This document shows positions 1-43,585 of a stretch of 47,449 bases of DNA, piece by piece. Numbering within the stretch: the first letter of the stretch is position 1; each line of letters opens with the position of its first letter. This DNA comes from a virus. Both the position numbers and the translations under genes were made by a program. The notes under the pieces are model-generated. The model ran no database searches. It worked only from the letters and a program-made list of their open reading frames with translations, and was not told where the DNA came from. Location of the stretch: IMG/VR virus record IMGVR_UViG_3300049456_000119, positions 1-47,449 of that record. One strand, 5' to 3'.

Positions 1-394
1 TCAGGCCCGACCCGCGCAGGTTCGCCTCGCTCAGGTCCGCCCCGCTCAGGTCCGCCCCGTACAGGTTCGCCCCGCTCAGGTCCGCTCCGCGCAGGTTCGC
101 CCTGCTCAGGTTCGCCCTGCTCAGGTCCGCCCCGCGCAGGTCCGCCCTGCTCAGGTCCGCCTCGCTCAGGTTCGCCTCGCTCAGGTCCGCCCCGCTCAGG
201 TTCGCCCTGCTCAGGTTCGCCCTGCTCAGGTTCGCCCTGCTCAGGTCCGCCCTGCTCAGGTCCGCTCCGCGCAGGTTCGCCCTGCTCAGGTCCGCTCCGT
301 ACAGGTTCGCCCTGCTCAGGTCCGCTCCGCGCAGGTTCGCCCCGCCATGTGTGTAAAGAACTTCCCCCGTCCTCTTATGCTTGATTTCGATCAT
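1..394 (-). CDS. Pentapeptide-repeat protein (3' end outside the window)
   Basis: From an ATG at 394 (upstream GAGGG Shine-Dalgarno) the minus strand reads MIEIKHKRTGEVLYTHGG followed by about 20 uninterrupted A(N/D)LxG five-residue repeats up to the window edge. This is the right-handed quadrilateral beta-helix fold; some family members mimic DNA and bind gyrase, but most have no known role. The frame is still open at base 1 and the last visible repeat is slightly degenerate (GSGL in place of GADL). It resembles the N-terminus of the second pentapeptide protein at 28240-29175. The high-GC 15-bp DNA repeat keeps all three minus frames open for long stretches; only this frame gives the pentapeptide pattern and an N-terminal domain. 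Confidence 0.85.
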   Translation of the reverse strand, partial: MIEIKHKRTGEVLYTHGGANLRGADLSRANLYGADLSRANLRGADLSRADLSRANLSRANLSRANLSGADLSEANLSEADLSRADLRGADLSRANLSRANLRGADLSGANLYGADLSGADLSEANLRGSGL

Positions 395-5082: not shown

Positions 5083-5271
5083 TTACTTTTTTTCTTTCTT
5101 GTCGACCAGTTTAGTGACAAGCCGGCGCCCGCCTTCGGCGACCATGGCTAAAACGAAGACCGAAACGAGCTTTTCCGCGTACGTGACGTATGGGGAGTTG
5201 ATCAGGGCGATAAAGCCAGTAATGACGCTCGTCGCGACGGAGGCGCTCGGGCTGTAGCTGTGAGAGCTCAC
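5083..5271 (-). CDS. Holin-like small membrane protein
   Basis: 62 residues. GTG 5271 overlaps the TGA of the upstream gene (GTGA), which gives a better start than the longer frame. Two hydrophobic segments (SVATSVITGFIALINSP and AEKLVSVFVLAMVAEGG) and a basic tail (RRLVTKLVDKKEKK) fit a small holin or antiholin. Position beside the fibre genes rather than in the endolysin group makes the role uncertain. Confidence 0.6.
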   Translation of the reverse strand: MSSHSYSPSASVATSVITGFIALINSPYVTYAEKLVSVFVLAMVAEGGRRLVTKLVDKKEKK

Positions 5272-11249: not shown

Positions 11250-11256
11250 AGTTTAG
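11250..11256 (-). promoter_or_regulatory. CTAAACT element before the connector gene
   Basis: Reads GGCGCTAAACTAACAGGG on the minus strand, 14 bases before ATG 11235. One of seven CTAAACT copies in intergenic positions; TAAACT would serve as a -10 element. Confidence 0.5.
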
Positions 11257-13231: not shown

Positions 13232-13780
13232 TCAGGCAGCTCCCGGCAGATTCACGTCGAGAAGGACGATGTTGCCGCTGCCCGTCAGGGTCTGGCGGAC
13301 GCGGAACTGGTGACCCGCATTGGCGATTTCGGTACCGGCGCCCGAGCTGGTCGACGCGTCGGTGAACTTGCCGCGGTCTGCCGCGAGCGTGCTGGAGTGG
13401 TAGGCGTTGGGCATACCGAAGGCGGTCTGCGTAGTGCCCTTCCACTCGGCGTAAATCCGGCCGCGCATGAGCACGGGGACCATGTCGCCGATGTTGTATT
13501 GCGGGCCGCCGATGCCGTAGGCGGTGATGCTCGTCGAGCCGCTCTGCTCGCGAGCAGTCACGAGGACCGACACACCCACTGGGGCGAATGTCGTCGAGGT
13601 CTGCTGGCATTGCTGAACCGACACGCCGTCCGTCGCCATTTCGACGGCGCGTCCCGGCTGAATCACCTCGTTCGCGGGGAACGAGACGATCTCGTTGTAG
13701 GCCATATCGGCCAACTGCCCGGGCATTGCGAATGCCGGGAACTGATTGACCGTTTGCTGGCCCTGAATGACGGCTGTCAT
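13232..13780 (-). CDS. Capsid decoration / cement protein
   Basis: 182 residues (MTAVIQGQQTVNQFPAFAMP). MAYNEIVSFPANEVIQPGRAV and GDMVPVLMRGRIYAEW are typical of phage structural cement (DUF2190-like) proteins that sit on the capsid surface. Between protease/scaffold and major capsid genes, the normal place. Confidence 0.7.
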   Translation of the reverse strand: MTAVIQGQQTVNQFPAFAMPGQLADMAYNEIVSFPANEVIQPGRAVEMATDGVSVQQCQQTSTTFAPVGVSVLVTAREQSGSTSITAYGIGGPQYNIGDMVPVLMRGRIYAEWKGTTQTAFGMPNAYHSSTLAADRGKFTDASTSSGAGTEIANAGHQFRVRQTLTGSGNIVLLDVNLPGAA

Positions 13781-14847
13781 GCGCTCACCTTGAGTTCACC
13801 GGAGTTGCGCCAAGCGTTTTGGCTGTCCGCGAGATGCTTCGTGTAGAGGTCCGTGTATTTGGGGATCACGACTGCGTCAGCGCGGTCGCCCGCGACCGGC
13901 GCCGCGACGACTGCCGCGAGCGAGGGGTGCGGCTGCGAGGCGTACACGGCGAGAATCGTGTCGACGGTCTCGGCGCCGAGGCTGTCCACGCGGGCCGCGA
14001 GGTCCGGGGTGCGCTTGGCGACGATTGCCCGCTTGATGTCGAGGGTCGATTTGCCGGCCGTGTCGACGCCCGCGGCTTTCGCCGTGGCAACGATTGCGGT
14101 TCGCTCTTCGACGAGCGCGTCGAGTCGCTCCGGGGAGACTTGCGCGACCGCGACTGCGAGATCCGCATTGGCCTTCGCGAGAGCGGCCGTCAGAGCGGGC
14201 ACCTCCGCGGCGTCAGTGCGGGATTTCGCCAGTTCGCCAGTCAACGCGGTGACTTGTGCTTGGAGGGCTTCTAGATCCACATTCGAGTTTAGCGACGCCG
14301 CGATCTCATCCCCTGCGGAGTCGAGTCGAAGGGAGCAATCCTGACCGCCGCGGGGCGCTTCTCCCATAAGGAGGGCGACGTGATTCCCGCGAATATTTCG
14401 CTGGACTCCGTCATACGGCTCTCCTTCGGGCGTAATGCCGGGGGTCGGGTCGTAATCGACGCGATATCCGCAAGAGAGACTATGCGCTTTTCGCGCCAGC
14501 ACGTTCTTTACTGACGTCTCGTCTCGGACGTAGACCTCAGAGACCGCGAAACCCGCATCCTCGCGAACGTTCTCGCCAAGGTGCCCGATTGCGTTCCCTT
14601 TCCAGGTCGCCGACGTCACTTTGCGGCCGGCCGGATGATTCAGCGTGACAGTAGAGGAGGCGAAGCTCGCGAGGGATGCCGGGGCGAATACTTCGCTCGG
14701 GGGGCGGTATTCGCGGCGCGCGGTGCCGTCGGGATTCTGATACACGAAAATCCCGGGTCGCGTGAGCTGCCCAACGACTTTGATGGAGCCGTCCGGCAAT
14801 TGCTGAATTGCGGAAGCGTCGAGGCGGAAGTCGGTAAACCGAAGCAC
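13777..14847 (-). CDS. Prohead protease fused to scaffold (DUF2213-like)
   Basis: 356 residues from GTG 14847, only five bases after CTAAACT, so the mRNA may be leaderless. The N-terminal ~170 residues are a DUF2213-type maturation protease with conserved TLNHP (His71) and HSLSCGY (Ser125) as the likely catalytic pair. Residues about 189-240 form a long Ala/Leu/Glu coiled coil (LEALQAQVTALTGELAKS), the scaffold part, with a C-terminal capsid-binding tail. It guides shell assembly, then cleaves itself and partners. Confidence 0.8.
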   Translation of the reverse strand: MLRFTDFRLDASAIQQLPDGSIKVVGQLTRPGIFVYQNPDGTARREYRPPSEVFAPASLASFASSTVTLNHPAGRKVTSATWKGNAIGHLGENVREDAGFAVSEVYVRDETSVKNVLARKAHSLSCGYRVDYDPTPGITPEGEPYDGVQRNIRGNHVALLMGEAPRGGQDCSLRLDSAGDEIAASLNSNVDLEALQAQVTALTGELAKSRTDAAEVPALTAALAKANADLAVAVAQVSPERLDALVEERTAIVATAKAAGVDTAGKSTLDIKRAIVAKRTPDLAARVDSLGAETVDTILAVYASQPHPSLAAVVAAPVAGDRADAVVIPKYTDLYTKHLADSQNAWRNSGELKVSA

Positions 14848-14852
14848 AAGAG

Positions 14853-14881
14853 AGTTTAGGGCGATGCGTCCCCACTAAACT
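14853..14881. promoter_or_regulatory. Divergent CTAAACT pair between capsid and tail operons
   Basis: AGTTTAG at 14853-14859 (CTAAACT read on the minus strand) and CTAAACT at 14875-14881 (plus) point away from each other over 15 bp. They sit 5 bases before GTG 14847 and 21 bases before ATG 14903. The 55-bp gap is all the space available for two promoters, so these are the best candidates for both. Confidence 0.6.
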
Positions 14882-21730: not shown

Positions 21731-21763
21731 TTGACAATTAGCTGACACGAGCTAATTAGTAAG
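21731..21763 (+). promoter_or_regulatory. CTAATTAGTAAG-class promoter before the integration operon
   Basis: TTGACA (21731-21736), 16 bp, then TAATTA (21753-21758) with an imperfect dyad AATTAGCT-GACACG-AGCTAATT. The 3' part GCTAATTAGTAAG runs straight into ATG 21764. One of four similar elements; this copy also has a consensus sigma-70 -35 box. A binding dyad over the promoter suggests repression. Confidence 0.6.
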
Positions 21764-24065: not shown

Positions 24066-24072
24066 CTAAACT
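24066..24072 (+). promoter_or_regulatory. CTAAACT element before the baseplate operon
   Basis: GACACTAAACTACCGG on the plus strand, 14 bases before ATG 24087. Just upstream is TTTCTAGGAA (about 24042-24051), which also occurs near the divergent copies at 29.87 kb. Confidence 0.55.
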
Positions 24073-28166: not shown

Positions 28167-28243
28167 CGTTCCGCCCGCACGTTGAAGTAGAGCGAGATCA
28201 GGATGAGAAGTAACCACGCGCCCCAGAGATAGACGTCGATCAC
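28163..28243 (-). CDS. 26-residue membrane protein
   Basis: GTG 28243 overlaps the pentapeptide stop, and its TGA overlaps the RuvC start. Sequence MIDVYLWGAWLLLILISLYF then NVRAER: one membrane helix with a basic end. Exactly fills the gap between the two genes. Confidence 0.6.
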   Translation of the reverse strand: MIDVYLWGAWLLLILISLYFNVRAER

Positions 28244-29175
28244 GGCGACACCGGACGGGGCAAGTGCCTACCATCGAAGAGCGCAACGAAGGTCGCGACA
28301 AGGGCGCGCTTCGTTTCGGGGGCATCCGCTTGACGGTGTATATCCAGTCCCGCGGCCATGGGGCAATCGGTCCACGAGTGAGATCCCCACGCGGCGATAG
28401 CGCGGGAGGTTGCCTCGGAGGTATCGCAGAGTCCCGCGAGCGGATCGGATTGCCACTGGGCAAGGGTGCGACCGTCGGGGAGATTGGCGTTCTGGAAATC
28501 GGCGCCCTGGAGATTGGCGCCCGTGAGATTGGCGCCACGGAAATCGGCGCCCTGGAGATCGGCGTCCTGGAGATTGGCGCCCTGGAGATTGGCGCCCCGG
28601 AGATTGGCGCCCCGGAGATTGGCGCCACGGAGACTGGCGCCCGTGAGATCGGCGTTCTGGAGACCGGCGCCCCCGAGATCGTCGTTCTGGAGATGGGTGT
28701 ACCGTAGATTGGCGTCCTGGAGATTGGCGCCCGTGAGATTGGCGCCACGGAGATCGGCGTCCTGGAGATCGGCGTTCTGGAGATAGGCGTCCTGGAAATC
28801 GGCGCCCGTGAGATGGGCGCCTCGGAGATCGGCGCCCTGGAGATTGGCGCCACGGAGATGGGTGTCCCGTAGATTGGCGCCACGGAGATCGGCGTCCTGG
28901 AAATTGGCGTCCTGGAAATTGGCTCCCCGGAGACGGGCGCCCGTGAGACGGGCGCCCGTGAGATCGGCGTACCGTAGATCGGCGTCCTGGAGATCGGCGC
29001 CCTGGAGATCGACGCCCTGGAGAGTGGCGCCCTGGAGATGGGCGCCCTGGAGACGGGCGCCCCCGAGATCGGCGCCCCGGAGATTGGCTCCCTGGAGATA
29101 GGCGCCCTGGAGATTGTCCCCGGGGTGCATGAATACGATTTCGTGAGTGAGGCGATGTTTGATGGTTACGGGCAT
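28240..29175 (-). CDS. Pentapeptide-repeat protein with C-terminal domain
   Basis: 311 residues from ATG 29175. N-terminal MPVTIKHRLTHEIVFMHPGD, then about 43 A(D/N)LQ/R-type repeats (residues ~20-230) and a non-repeat C-terminal domain (RTLAQWQSDPLAGLCDTSEA to the end). The repeat part forms a long quadrilateral beta-helix, in some family members a DNA mimic that protects or inhibits gyrase. Controlled by a CTAATTAGTAAG element touching its start codon and cotranscribed with a RuvC-like nuclease, which favours a DNA-related role. Confidence 0.85.
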   Translation of the reverse strand: MPVTIKHRLTHEIVFMHPGDNLQGAYLQGANLRGADLGGARLQGAHLQGATLQGVDLQGADLQDADLRYADLTGARLTGARLRGANFQDANFQDADLRGANLRDTHLRGANLQGADLRGAHLTGADFQDAYLQNADLQDADLRGANLTGANLQDANLRYTHLQNDDLGGAGLQNADLTGASLRGANLRGANLRGANLQGANLQDADLQGADFRGANLTGANLQGADFQNANLPDGRTLAQWQSDPLAGLCDTSEATSRAIAAWGSHSWTDCPMAAGLDIHRQADAPETKRALVATFVALFDGRHLPRPVSP

Positions 29176-29206
29176 CTTACTAATTAGCCCGTGTCCGGGC
29201 TTATTC
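29176..29206 (-). promoter_or_regulatory. CTAATTAGTAAG-class element before the pentapeptide operon
   Basis: Reads AATAAGCCCGGACACGGG then CTAATTAGTAAG on the minus strand and runs into ATG 29175. The 13 bases GCTAATTAGTAAG are identical to the 21.7-kb copy. The outer arm lies within the stop codon region of the upstream gene. Confidence 0.6.
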
Positions 29207-29641
29207 GTCCCCGCCGAACTCTACCGCCAGCTTGCGCCACTGCTCCCGTTGCTCTTGCGTCATCTTCTCGAAGGCGATCGTCGGTGCGATAGCGTGTGCG
29301 ATGTTCTCGGTCGCTTGGCCGGTATCGAGGCGGTAATTCTTCGAGACGAACTCGGCCATCTTCAGGATCGTCGCCGGGTCGAGAGGCCCGATCGAGTTCT
29401 CGAAATCCTTGCCTTGCGAGATTGTCAAGTATTTCTGAAGTTGCGTGAGTACCAGTTCGGTCCCGACCGACAACATCTCGGCGTGCATTTGCCGGGCCTT
29501 TGCGACAGCCAGGCGGGCCGCTGCTTCGGCTTCGCGGGCGAGGGCTAGCTTGGCCGCCGCTGCGCGTTCAGACACCGCCTCGGGGCGCTGGTGAGGCGGC
29601 AGCCAGGGGACGATTGCGCGATCGTCAGGCGTCGGGGCCAT
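29201..29641 (-). CDS. Possible small terminase subunit
   Basis: 146 residues from ATG 29641. Helical: an Ala-rich coiled coil (LAREAEAAARLAVAKARQMH) and ATILKMAEFVSKNYRLDTGQ, which is the tone of phage small terminase oligomerisation regions. Overlaps the HTH gene upstream by 17 bases in another frame. Position before portal supports a packaging role; the large subunit is 5 kb away. Confidence 0.5.
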   Translation of the reverse strand: MAPTPDDRAIVPWLPPHQRPEAVSERAAAAKLALAREAEAAARLAVAKARQMHAEMLSVGTELVLTQLQKYLTISQGKDFENSIGPLDPATILKMAEFVSKNYRLDTGQATENIAHAIAPTIAFEKMTQEQREQWRKLAVEFGGDE

Positions 29642-29861
29642 GCGTCTTGCCCGTGAGGACGTTGGAAACCGTTTTCACACACACGCCCATCTCTCGGGCG
29701 ATCTGATCGTAAGACGGCTGCGGCTTGCGCGCGCGCATCTCGCGAATTTGCTGCGCGCGGATCGCTGCGTATGTTCGCGCAATCGCCTGCCCGAACGTCT
29801 CGGGCTCCGCGAGGGGGCGAGCGGGGGCGGACGGGGGGAGTTCCTTCGTTTGCTTGGCCAC
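29625..29861 (-). CDS. HTH DNA-binding protein
   Basis: 78 residues from GTG 29861, five bases after CTAAACT on the minus strand. C-terminal PSYDQIAREMGVCVKTVSNV plus LTGKTHG is a clear helix-turn-helix. It may be the DNA-binding half of the packaging recognition unit together with the next gene, or a regulator. A ATG two bases upstream is in another frame. Confidence 0.65.
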   Translation of the reverse strand: MAKQTKELPPSAPARPLAEPETFGQAIARTYAAIRAQQIREMRARKPQPSYDQIAREMGVCVKTVSNVLTGKTHGPDA

Positions 29862-29866
29862 ATCTT

Positions 29867-29909
29867 AGTTTAGCTTCCTAGAAAGAAGGGGACGTCCCGG
29901 CACTAAACT
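29867..29909. promoter_or_regulatory. Divergent CTAAACT pair between HTH and portal genes
   Basis: AGTTTAG at 29867-29873 (minus) and CTAAACT at 29903-29909 (plus), pointing apart. Each lies five bases from a GTG start (29861 and 29915). If TAAACT is the -10 box, both messages would begin at or next to the start codon. TTCCTAGAAAG between them resembles the sequence before the 24.07-kb copy in reverse. Confidence 0.6.
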
Positions 29910-32510: not shown

Positions 32511-32540
32511 TCTTATTTATTAGTGTGAGTCCGGTAATTA

Positions 32541-32547
32541 AGTTTAG
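32541..32547 (-). promoter_or_regulatory. CTAAACT element before the metzincin pair
   Basis: Reads GGCACTAAACTTAATTACCG on the minus strand, in a 123-bp intergenic gap. Confidence 0.5.
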
Positions 32548-34312: not shown

Positions 34313-35827
34313 TCAGGTAATGCCAAGGCCCGGCGTCGCGCGCACGGTCTCCATGGCTGCTTTTAGGTAGGACATGAACTGCAAAAGGTAGAGAAGCGCC
34401 TGCGTCGTCGCATCGACTTGGTCGTCGTGCTTGGCGCGCGGGAAAGATAGAAGCTCGGGCAAATACAACGATGCGACCCACTCGTACCCGGGCATGGCCG
34501 GGTCGGGTAAATAGACGTTCCCCGCCTCGAAAAGACCTGAAGTCGCTGACGCGCGAGAAAACTTTCCCCCCTGCGGATCGACAGCCACGAGGCCCGGCAC
34601 TTCCAAGGTCAGCGTGGCCACCACGCCGGTCCCGTTCGCCTTATCCTCAATTAGCTTCACAATAGCTTGTTTCCAGCGGAGTGCAAGCTCACGGACTTTT
34701 TTTACCGTCATCGGGAAGTCGAAGTGCCCGTGAAGTTGGTCGAGCAAGAAGAACCAAGCACCGACACGCGCCCACGCTTGGCCCGCGACGAAGTCGCTCG
34801 TTGCCTCGTCCTTGAAGGCACAATCCCACGAGTTCACGATCTGATCGAACGCAACCGGGCGCGCGATGATCTCGCTCGGTTCCCACCCGGGCATGATGAC
34901 GTGCCGGCCTTCGCGGACGGTCGACCAGAACCTGAGGGTCTCGCGCTTGAAGACCGCGCCGCCCTCGGGGACGGGGGACTGGTCGTACTGCGCCGAGTAC
35001 GCCATGCCGCCAAGGTCGAGCTTCATCTTGTCGAGCCACGCCTGCGGGAGTCGGTTCGGCTCGAAGAGCTCCCCGACCTTCGTGCGCGGGTCGCTGCCCC
35101 AAGTCGTCACCGTGCGGCGCGCAGGGTCGAAGTTCGCCGGCAGGCAAAGGTGAACGGCGCCGTTGTCGAGAAGAAGCTGAGAGGGGTCGTCGCAATGCAA
35201 CCGCTGCATGATGAGGATGCGGGAGCGCACTTGGTCGGCGCCGAGTCGCCAGCGCGAGCCAAGCGTCGTTCCGATCCACGCGCGCGCCGTCTCGAGACCG
35301 ATCTTCGAAAGGTCGGCCGGCTTGATTGGGTCGTCGATGATTTGGTAGTTCGCGTGCCACCCGGTGACCGCGCCGCCCGGGGTAGTCCCGAGGCGCCAGC
35401 CCCCGCGGTTGTTTTCGATGAGCTCGACCGCCGGCTTCGTGGGGATCTTGAAGTCCTCGCCCCAGCGGGCCAGCCACCACTTCGATTGCAAGACCTCGCG
35501 GAACGCGCGCGCGTCGCGGTGAATGATGTCGTCGCCGTACGCCCCCGTGATGATACTTCGCTCGGGGGACTTCGCCCAAATCCACAACGGGAAGAGCACG
35601 CACGTGAGTGATGACTTGCTACCGGCCGGCGGAATGTTCACGACGAGCTCGCGAATTTCGCCCGTGTAGCAAGCCTGGTAATGCGATGCAATCAAAGGTA
35701 TGTGCCAATTCCATTGCAAAGGAAAAGCGGCATACGCTTGAGGCCAAACCATCCGTATGAAATCGATGAAATTACCGCTTCGAACCGTCTCCCTATCGCA
35801 CGCAATTAGATTCTCACGCAGCGACAT
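34313..35827 (-). CDS. terL: Terminase large subunit
   Basis: 504 residues from ATG 35827. N-terminal ATPase with Walker A variant PPAGSKSS (66-73) and Walker B QIIDDP (162-167); C-terminal RNase H-fold nuclease with Asp335 (NSWDCAFKD), Glu394/Asp395 (LIEDKANG) and KHDDQVDA (467-474). It cuts concatemers and pumps DNA through the portal. The portal is 4 kb away, on the other strand, an unusual split of the packaging genes. Confidence 0.9.
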   Translation of the reverse strand: MSLRENLIACDRETVRSGNFIDFIRMVWPQAYAAFPLQWNWHIPLIASHYQACYTGEIRELVVNIPPAGSKSSLTCVLFPLWIWAKSPERSIITGAYGDDIIHRDARAFREVLQSKWWLARWGEDFKIPTKPAVELIENNRGGWRLGTTPGGAVTGWHANYQIIDDPIKPADLSKIGLETARAWIGTTLGSRWRLGADQVRSRILIMQRLHCDDPSQLLLDNGAVHLCLPANFDPARRTVTTWGSDPRTKVGELFEPNRLPQAWLDKMKLDLGGMAYSAQYDQSPVPEGGAVFKRETLRFWSTVREGRHVIMPGWEPSEIIARPVAFDQIVNSWDCAFKDEATSDFVAGQAWARVGAWFFLLDQLHGHFDFPMTVKKVRELALRWKQAIVKLIEDKANGTGVVATLTLEVPGLVAVDPQGGKFSRASATSGLFEAGNVYLPDPAMPGYEWVASLYLPELLSFPRAKHDDQVDATTQALLYLLQFMSYLKAAMETVRATPGLGIT

Positions 35828-35906: not shown

Positions 35907-36109
35907 GCGCGCCTCGGCGCCGGGGGCAACGGATCGAGCACCAACGGTGCGGTTGTCCGGAAAACTTCGTGAATCTGATAGACCACGAACACGCGCGAGT
36001 CGTACGACATCGACATCTCTTTCGCGCGCGTCACGGCTTGCTGGCGGGTAACCGAAGTCACGAGTCCGCCTTCGCTCATTACGATGTACTCGAGGTCGGG
36101 AGCGATCAT
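35903..36109 (-). CDS. Small hypothetical protein
   Basis: 68 residues (MIAPDLEYIVMSEGGLVTSV). Alpha/beta pattern with RVFVVYQIHEVFRTTAPLVL, similar in type to other small phage proteins. ATGA overlaps on both sides. Confidence 0.6.
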   Translation of the reverse strand: MIAPDLEYIVMSEGGLVTSVTRQQAVTRAKEMSMSYDSRVFVVYQIHEVFRTTAPLVLDPLPPAPRRA

Positions 36110-36798
36110 CGCACCGCCCTCCGTCGCGCGACGTAGTCCGTCGCCTCTTTGGTCAGATCGTCGCGCTTCCCCGTCCAGAACTCTCCGCGGTCTTTCGCCG
36201 CGAGCTTCCGCACGAACGTGCGAAGCGCGAGCATGTCGCGCTTGCGGTCGATTGCATCCTCGGGCGCATCCGGCACGGTCGCGATGGCGGCCGGCAGGCA
36301 GGAGGATATCCGCTTCGTGCGGTCGAACGGTTGCGTGCGGGGGTCGATCGCCATGAAGGTGGCCTGAGCCGCCTGCGCGCGCTTCATTGCGCTCGGGGCG
36401 ATGCCGACCTCGACGGGCTCCGCCTCGCGCCCGTGCTGCGCGTAGAAGGCCGCCATCGCGTCTTGCTGCGCGCGGGGTAAGTCAGCATCCTTCGGTCGCG
36501 AGATGGGCGTGGCGTGGCGGAGAACGAGCTGCATTTCGTGCCGCATCTTGAAGAACGCGAGCGTCGAGAAAGCCCCGCGCTCGGGGTCCCACTCGGCGAT
36601 GGCGGCCAAGAGGCCGAGGCGCGCGGCCTGGAAGATGTCGTCGCGGAGGTTGTCGATCGCGTACTGCGTCCGACCGAGGAAAGCGCTCGCGAAGCGCTGC
36701 ACGAGCGGCTCGTTCTCGGCCGCCATCTTAGCCATGAGGCGCGACTTTTTCACGCGGCTCGTGGCCGTCTTCCAGGCGTCGAAATCGATTCGGTTCAT
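36106..36798 (-). CDS. Sigma-70 region 2-like protein
   Basis: 230 residues. Residues 51-95 (LRDDIFQAARLGLLAAIAEW, DPERGAFSTLAFFKMRHEMQ) match sigma region 2.1-2.4: D-D-x-x-Q-x-x-x-x-G-L, the D-P-E-R-G turn and F-S-T-x-A. Region 4 is not clear; the C-terminal LRTFVRKLAAKDRGEFWTGK may be a degenerate form. Likely a phage sigma factor redirecting host RNA polymerase to phage promoters, perhaps to CTAAACT or CTAATTAGTAAG sites. It could instead be a phage-borne transcription-modulating fragment. Confidence 0.7.
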   Translation of the reverse strand: MNRIDFDAWKTATSRVKKSRLMAKMAAENEPLVQRFASAFLGRTQYAIDNLRDDIFQAARLGLLAAIAEWDPERGAFSTLAFFKMRHEMQLVLRHATPISRPKDADLPRAQQDAMAAFYAQHGREAEPVEVGIAPSAMKRAQAAQATFMAIDPRTQPFDRTKRISSCLPAAIATVPDAPEDAIDRKRDMLALRTFVRKLAAKDRGEFWTGKRDDLTKEATDYVARRRAVR

Positions 36799-37583
36799 GC
36801 TGCCCTCTTGAGTCGGTCCGAGAGCAAGGACTCCCCCTTGTGAATTGCTACATTGATGTGCTGGAAACGCCCGCTACGTGCGACGAACTGCACTCCGTAT
36901 CCGTGATTCCATGACGTCGGCGCGGTATGCGCGTATAGGGGCTGCAACTTCGCGAGCGTTCCCGGGCACGCGGCGATGAATCCCGTCGAGGCCACCGTGC
37001 GCTCGTTCACCGATTGCACGCGGTGGACATGACCGAAGATGACCGAGGCGCCGAACCGCGCCAAGTGCGTGGCCGCGCAGTGCTTCGAATGCGAGATGCC
37101 GTGGACGAAGTAGCACTGCCCGAGCTTGATCGTGCCGGGGATGCTCAGCCCCATGTACATCGTCGAACGCTTGTAATAGGTAATGCCGCGACTCGCGAGC
37201 TTCAACACGGCCTCGGGGCCGTAGACGTCGAGCATCCCGATCGCGTCCTTCTGATTGAGGAAGTTGCGAGAGGCCCATCTCTCGACGTGGGCCTCATGAT
37301 TTCCTTCAATGTAGTGGATGCGAGCGCGAGGGGCGCGGCGTTGGATCATGTCGAGGAAGAGGTTCGTCGCTTTACAATCGTCGGCGTACGACTCCGTGTA
37401 CTCGTGCGTGTAATTCCGTTGGTGCGAGTTGAACGTTCCGCCACAATCTAGATGGTCCCCGAGCATCACGATCTCTTTCGGGTCGAGCGCCTTCAGGTCG
37501 CCAAGGAAGGCGTCCCGGGCGGCGATGTCGATATGCTCTCCGTGGGAATCGGGGACGATGACTCTTGCGAACTCGGAACTCAT
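36795..37583 (-). CDS. Calcineurin-like metallophosphoesterase
   Basis: 262 residues from ATG 37583. Metal motifs in order: PDSHGE (Asp12, His14), GDHLDCGG (about 42-49), GNHEAH (about 108), the His in FVHGISHS and GHVHRV (about 188). Two-metal phosphoesterase. Position among nucleotide-handling genes suggests a nuclease or nucleotide phosphatase. A longer upstream frame is not supported. Confidence 0.85.
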   Translation of the reverse strand: MSSEFARVIVPDSHGEHIDIAARDAFLGDLKALDPKEIVMLGDHLDCGGTFNSHQRNYTHEYTESYADDCKATNLFLDMIQRRAPRARIHYIEGNHEAHVERWASRNFLNQKDAIGMLDVYGPEAVLKLASRGITYYKRSTMYMGLSIPGTIKLGQCYFVHGISHSKHCAATHLARFGASVIFGHVHRVQSVNERTVASTGFIAACPGTLAKLQPLYAHTAPTSWNHGYGVQFVARSGRFQHINVAIHKGESLLSDRLKRAA

Positions 37584-37629
37584 AGGTCTTCTCCGGCCGC
37601 TTCCGCGGCTTTGGGCATCAAGCAAAGTT

Positions 37630-39918: not shown

Positions 39919-39949
39919 CTTACTAATTAGCCCCTGTCCGGCTAATTAG
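39919..39949 (-). promoter_or_regulatory. CTAATTAGTAAG-class element before the nucleotide operon
   Basis: Perfect 10-bp arms CTAATTAGCC / GGCTAATTAG around a 7-bp centre containing GGACA on the minus strand, followed by TAAGAAGG. ATG 39905 is 14 bases further. This is the most symmetric of the four copies. Confidence 0.65.
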
Positions 39950-43551: not shown

Positions 43552-43585
43552 CTCATCAATTAGCCCTTGTCCAGCTAATTAGGGT
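43552..43585 (-). promoter_or_regulatory. CTAATTAG-class element before the ssDNA-binding operon
   Basis: TAATTAGCTGGACAAGGGCT then AATTGATGAG on the minus strand: arms AATTAGC/GCTAATT around GGACA. The 3' part (TTGATGAG) diverges from the TTAGTAAG of the other copies. Overlaps the last bases of the helicase gene. Confidence 0.55.

Follow-up and report, generated by a model that had tools for sequence, protein, structure and literature searches.

Background

In general a sigma factor recognizes two promoter elements, and it is mainly in T4 that the loss of one has been studied. Sigma-like late activators whose genes lie beside the terminase are found in prophages of Gram-positive bacteria, among them Xpf of PBSX and the ArpU/RinA group. 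The late promoters of T4 consist of an 8-bp box that has no -35 element, is located about one turn upstream of the start and needs gp55; the T4 protein gp33 mimics sigma-4 on the beta flap and does not read DNA (PMC2988020). The phage lineage described in this report would represent a second, apparently unrelated case of a sigma factor that lacks the -35 contact.

The window, by which we mean the whole stretch of DNA that was analysed (47,449 nucleotides), is a 47.4 kb virus record with a GC content of 63%. It encodes an integrase, tail sheath, tape measure, baseplate, portal, head protease, major capsid, terminase large subunit (TerL), DNA polymerase I and helicase, and is therefore regarded as a temperate phage with a contractile tail. 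The sigma-like gene and the other features discussed here are compiled in Table 1.

Table 1. Positions and strands of the sigma-like gene, its neighbours and the two sequence motifs in the window
Feature	Position	Strand	Remarks
Sigma-like gene, 230 aa, ATG start	36106..36798	-	ORF real; sigma-70-type protein
Regions of the sigma-like protein	residues ~27-96; 109-144; 145-177; 179-229		region 2; region 3-like helices; disordered linker; shortened region 4
TerL	34313..35827	-	downstream neighbour of sigma in all relatives covering the spot
Metallophosphoesterase	36795..37625	-	conserved upstream neighbour of sigma
Head maturation protease (DUF2213)	13777..14847	-	scaffold-like C-terminal part
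CTAAACT, N5, GTG(14847)	14853..14859	-	start of head protease gene
CTAAACT, N5, in-frame GTG(14280)	14286..14292	-	inside head protease gene
CTAAACT, N5, GTG(29915)	29903..29909	+	portal gene
CTAAACT, N5, GTG(29861)	29867..29873	-	small HTH protein gene, divergent from portal
CTAAACT, 21 nt before ATG	14875..14881	+	tail sheath gene
CTAAACT, 14 nt before ATG(24087)	24066..24072	+	baseplate wedge gene, probable true start
CTAAACT, 14 nt before ATG(11235)	11250..11256	-	virion structural gene
CTAAACT, 25 nt before ATG(5082)	5108..5114	-	100-aa gene
CTAAACT, 30 nt before ATG(32510)	32541..32547	-	beside imperfect copy of the other motif
CTAATTAGTAAG, copy nearest sigma	39919..39930	-	3.1 kb upstream; heads same-strand gene run including sigma
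CTAATTAGTAAG	29176..29187	-	directly before ATG of pentapeptide-repeat gene
CTAATTAGTAAG	21752..21763	+	directly before ATG of 59-aa ORF near integrase
Composite repeat	21752-21763, 29176-29187, 32512-32523, 39919-39930, about 43558-43582		oriented toward the downstream gene

Gene neighbourhood and relatives

A search anchored on TerL recovered eleven related records, and alignment-based searches gave more. In every relative whose record reaches that spot a homologue of the sigma-like gene adjoins TerL, and the order phosphoesterase, sigma, TerL is kept across the relatives. The sigma proteins are 47% (G012) down to 26% identical to the window protein, far lower than the values for TerL (50-62%) and the phosphoesterase (62-76%). 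Searching IMG/VR directly with the single sigma protein returned no close relatives, the same query against a phage collection gave one weak partial match only, and genome contigs searched with TerL for a host yielded distant matches only. One candidate relative, G017, was rejected, as it encodes a complete sigma of a different kind and none of its CTAAA(A/C)T sites has a start at the spacing described below; this unrelated record was used as a control.

The sigma-like protein

On profile evidence the window protein is a sigma-70-type factor of a variant kind, and not a complete sigma-70, because the helix-turn-helix of region 4.2 is missing, yet sigma factors without region 4.2 exist (T4 gp55). 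The sequence-only reading had described the region 2 signature as strong, and this is borne out by a match of residues 27-94 to Pfam Sigma70_r2 (E 1.6e-7, above the curated cut-off) and by a PHROG match to the sigma family phrog_351 (E 1.2e-10). The Sigma70_r2 cut-off was passed by the window protein and six of the seven relatives scanned, the relative below it (L015) scoring 22.0 against a cut-off of 24. Residues D54, Q57 and F77 are conserved in every aligned sigma member. The AlphaFold2 model (pTM 0.45) comprises a confident region 2, a region-3-like part, a disordered linker and three C-terminal helices, and the predicted region 2 superposes on known sigma domain 2 over 90-91 residues at 1.9 A. 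The best solved relatives of the single window sequence are FliA sigma factors.

Regions outside region 2 were traced with a profile of the family, which matches the housekeeping SigA (E 2e-14). The alignment starts with region 2, spans region 3 and breaks off in the first helices of region 4. Region 3 is present, as the profile could be aligned through region 3 of both SigA and RpoD; regions 1.1 and 1.2 were not detected in the window protein. Region 4 had been read as weak or lost, and this holds insofar as no region-4 Pfam model matches the window protein at E<=1, but the description was incomplete, since the start of region 4 remains and region 3 is there as well. Sigma70_r4 was found in none of the eight proteins scanned with Pfam (the window protein and seven relatives); in the same scan a control phage sigma gave both regions, and Pfam region-4 matches were given by the sigmas of L069 and L051. 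The C-terminal piece alone had no match among solved structures, and the Pfam scan of the window protein gave no match to the Xpf, ArpU or RinA families. In the alignment the C-terminus is basic (VARRRAVR).

When the window family is aligned with sigmas that keep region 4, a gap of about 16 residues, whose borders vary with the alignment, falls at the region 4.2 helix-turn-helix. The outgroup L069 has the same gene order as the window, and its sigma is a homologue (30% identity, E 5e-19) in which region 4 is retained (Pfam 3.2e-5, slightly below the curated cut-off). Because this homologue in the same gene order retains the region intact, the window family seems to have lost about 16 residues that include the helix-turn-helix reading the -35 element, and the loss is probably derived.

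The CTAAA(A/C)T element

The heptamer CTAAACT is present in nine copies in the window against 1.4 expected, a number not reached in 100 shuffles. Four of the nine are followed, after exactly five nucleotides (N5), by a GTG that starts the portal gene, the head protease gene, a small divergent HTH gene or an in-frame segment inside the protease gene, and four further copies stand 14-25 nt before an ATG. It had been proposed that the genome carries two distinct intergenic motifs; both exist and both exceed chance, but one CTAAACT (14286-14292) is located within the head protease gene and is thus not intergenic. For the baseplate wedge gene (+ strand), the late element and the homologues indicate that the start is probably ATG 24087, not 24015. 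The small HTH gene (29625-29861, - strand) shows weak matches to HTH and late-activator families and has relatives in G002-G004 and L069; its product could be a small terminase (TerS) or a second regulator.

Among the relatives the homologous sites are mostly CTAAAAT, which is why the exact CTAAACT-N5 pattern was absent from those searched first. When ORFs of at least 60 codons with an ATG or GTG start exactly 5 nt after the element were counted over ten records, 27 of 62 CTAAA(A/C)T sites qualified, no other offset was seen more than five times, and the next best of all 256 NTANNNT 7-mers compared at the same spacing reached 3 of 21. Per-record binomial P values range from 1e-6 to 1e-9 in G000, G003 and G016, and the signal is weak in G005 (0.086). 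The genes led by the element are overall those for portal, head protease, scaffold, sheath and baseplate; the late genes that carry it across relatives are the protease, portal, sheath and structural gene 10915, in a gene-by-gene comparison that disregarded artefactual motif offsets close to the ends of contigs (G001, G008, G011). The element is absent from the replication genes, sigma and TerL in the window and relatives.

No -35 element is detectable upstream of 46 aligned sites, which contain no upstream information except a preference for G just before the box; matches to TTGACA show no excess (2.61 versus 2.67 in random sequence), and a TGn is found in only one of the 46. Because upstream information and a TTGACA excess are both lacking and the element recurs at the same late genes of relatives, CTAAA(A/C)T is best classed as a predicted -10-only promoter. 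With N5 between the element and the start codon, the mRNA would presumably begin at that codon itself, as a leaderless transcript. In two relatives, G006 (L007 2253) and G008, CTAAAAT-N5-ATG precedes an ORF of 78 aa whose end is immediately upstream of sigma, and positive feedback on sigma is possible there.

The copy inside the protease gene deserves separate mention. Many phages encode their scaffold as a nested segment at the C-terminal end of the protease. The internal in-frame GTG (14280) opens a predicted 167-aa protein (13777-14280) with a coiled-coil-like beginning, and the nested arrangement recurs in relatives with N5 in G012 and G016 and N8 in G003. This CTAAACT is probably the promoter of a separately transcribed, nested scaffold-like protein; it is possible that coding constraint explains the conserved sequence at 14280-14292. 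Taken as a rule, CTANNNT followed by five bases and a start codon could serve to locate late promoters and to correct start codons in these uncultured phages.

The second motif

The other motif, CTAATTAGTAAG, has three exact copies in the window and one with two mismatches, against 0.5 expected. Of the palindrome CTAATTAG there are six copies in the window and six in G003. Around CTAATTAG a longer composite, AATTAG-CYGGACANGGG-CTAATT(AGTAAG), can be recognized in the window, pointing at the downstream gene; in its strict form it had no match in IMG/VR. Among 16 other records examined, including the unrelated G017, CTAATTAG is absent from 15, one of them the closest sigma relative G012. As it is common only to the window and G003, CTAATTAG was rejected as a conserved partner of sigma; it may be an early promoter or a repressor site. 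Directly behind one CTAATTAGTAAG copy lies a gene for a pentapeptide-repeat protein of 311 aa (28240-29175, - strand). Two further observations concern composition: AAATATTT is strongly over-represented across the whole window, and the stretch 2493-2951 is very AT-rich for a genome of 63% GC, its AT content reaching 84% over 50 bases.

Linking the sigma factor to the element

The sigma family and the CTAAA(A/C)T-N5-start element co-occur in this lineage. Among 79 other TerL relatives, one of 81 sites has the N5 start, compared with 26 of 62 in the sigma lineage (a record set slightly different from that of the 27/62 count), a difference with P 2e-10 that overstates independence, the lineages being few and related. 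A search of 14 of those more distant relatives for the sigma gave no match, an empty answer that carries little weight where records are fragments, and N5 was found in none of their 27 sites; two cultured phages with a related TerL also have no N5 pattern. The letter within the motif follows the sigma: CTAAACT is dominant in G000 and the nearest sigma relative G012, CTAAAAT in the others, and CTACGCT in L069, the exceptions being the use of both letters in G005 and a single CTAAAAT site in G012. The correlation covers few lineages. In L069 the element precedes, with N5, the portal gene as well as the HTH gene divergent from it, two sites only, both within an inverted repeat.

The earlier suggestion that the sigma-like protein could turn on the CTAAACT class thus gains likelihood from the co-occurrence, from the changed motif in L069 and from the failure of CTAATTAG to be conserved with sigma. 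A sigma that has no -35 reader also fits promoters that have no -35 element. We consider it probable that host RNA polymerase is directed by the phage sigma to late promoters that consist of a -10 box only and are often leaderless. In this mechanism the protein would bind the host core RNA polymerase through region 2, and regions 2 and 3 would read the 7-8 bp -10 element (G)CTAAACT. Region 4, devoid of its DNA-reading helix-turn-helix, would make a -35 element dispensable, and the beta flap may still be a docking site for the region-4.1 helices that remain. Transcripts of structural genes would often begin with the start codon itself and so be leaderless. Sigma would be made earlier, within the replication gene run, setting an order of early genes, sigma and then structural genes. 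Evidence that runs counter to this scheme is that sigma and TerL share a gene run that has no copy of the element, though TerL is usually a late gene.

Alternative explanations

In the main rival reading the element is the ordinary -10 box of the host housekeeping sigma, the phage protein reading other sites or acting as an anti-host factor. TAAAAT is near the consensus -10, both TAAAAT and TAAACT fit the TAnnnT of a host sigma-70, some hosts have leaderless promoters driven by a -10 box, and leaderless transcripts are common in some bacteria, for example in mycobacteria (PMC4633059). Such sites would, however, be weak host promoters given the missing -35 excess and the near absence of TGn; they are confined to late genes, the TerL relatives in which no sigma was found also lack the N5 pattern, and the motif becomes CTACGCT in L069, all of which makes a host box unlikely. 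That the phage sigma reads the CTAATTAGTAAG class instead is far less credible: one copy does precede the gene run in which sigma is located, and two copies likewise stand at N5 from an ATG, but CTAATTAG is absent from G005, G012, G009, G010, G016 and further records with sigma or its late motif, and the composite repeat is longer and looks more like an operator plus promoter.

The position of the gene, directly upstream of TerL where TerS usually lies, raises the question of whether the product is a DNA-binding packaging protein, a small terminase. Cultured phages with a related TerL have TerS at this position, and one relative gave a weak TerS match (phrog_891, E 0.083). The profile homology to sigma regions 2 and 3, the predicted sigma domain 2 fold and the presence of sigma regions 2 and 4 in the outgroup protein at the same position leave this reading with hardly any probability. 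The preferred account is the redirection of host polymerase by the phage sigma. A wider scenario, to which we give about an even chance, is that a late sigma of one chain, with a region-4 remnant that reads no DNA, arose in a temperate lineage independently of T4, and that this lineage moved its late genes to -10-only leaderless promoters, including a scaffold promoter inside the protease gene, L069 representing the step before the loss. Homologues with and without region 4 occupy the same gene position and the promoters change too, so that loss of the -35 contact and the rewiring of late genes can be tested together.

Comparison with known systems

The window protein shares with SigA, FliA and WhiG homologous regions 2 and 3, and differs from them in a shortened region 4 that has no detectable helix-turn-helix and in that regions 1.1 and 1.2 were not detected. 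The likeness to T4 gp55 lies in a phage-coded sigma-70-type protein whose late promoters, here as predicted from sequence, consist of a single -10 box; with N5 and a transcript that begins at the start codon, the box would occupy -13 to -6, as does the T4 late box. Membership in the gp55 family was rejected (hhalign against T4 gp55, E 0.45), and the two proteins fall into different families, phrog_351 here and phrog_234 for gp55. The window protein combines region 3 and a shortened region 4 in a single chain, whereas gp55 is sigma-like only in domain 2 and works with gp33. The C-terminus of gp55 carries a hydrophobic-acidic epitope for the sliding clamp; no clamp-binding tail was seen in the aligned window protein. 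The box also differs, (G)CTAAA(A/C)T and apparently often leaderless, and the phage is temperate, unlike T4. If the proposed scheme is true, a sigma with a region-4 remnant would be the natural counterpart of the artificial gp55-gp33 fusion.
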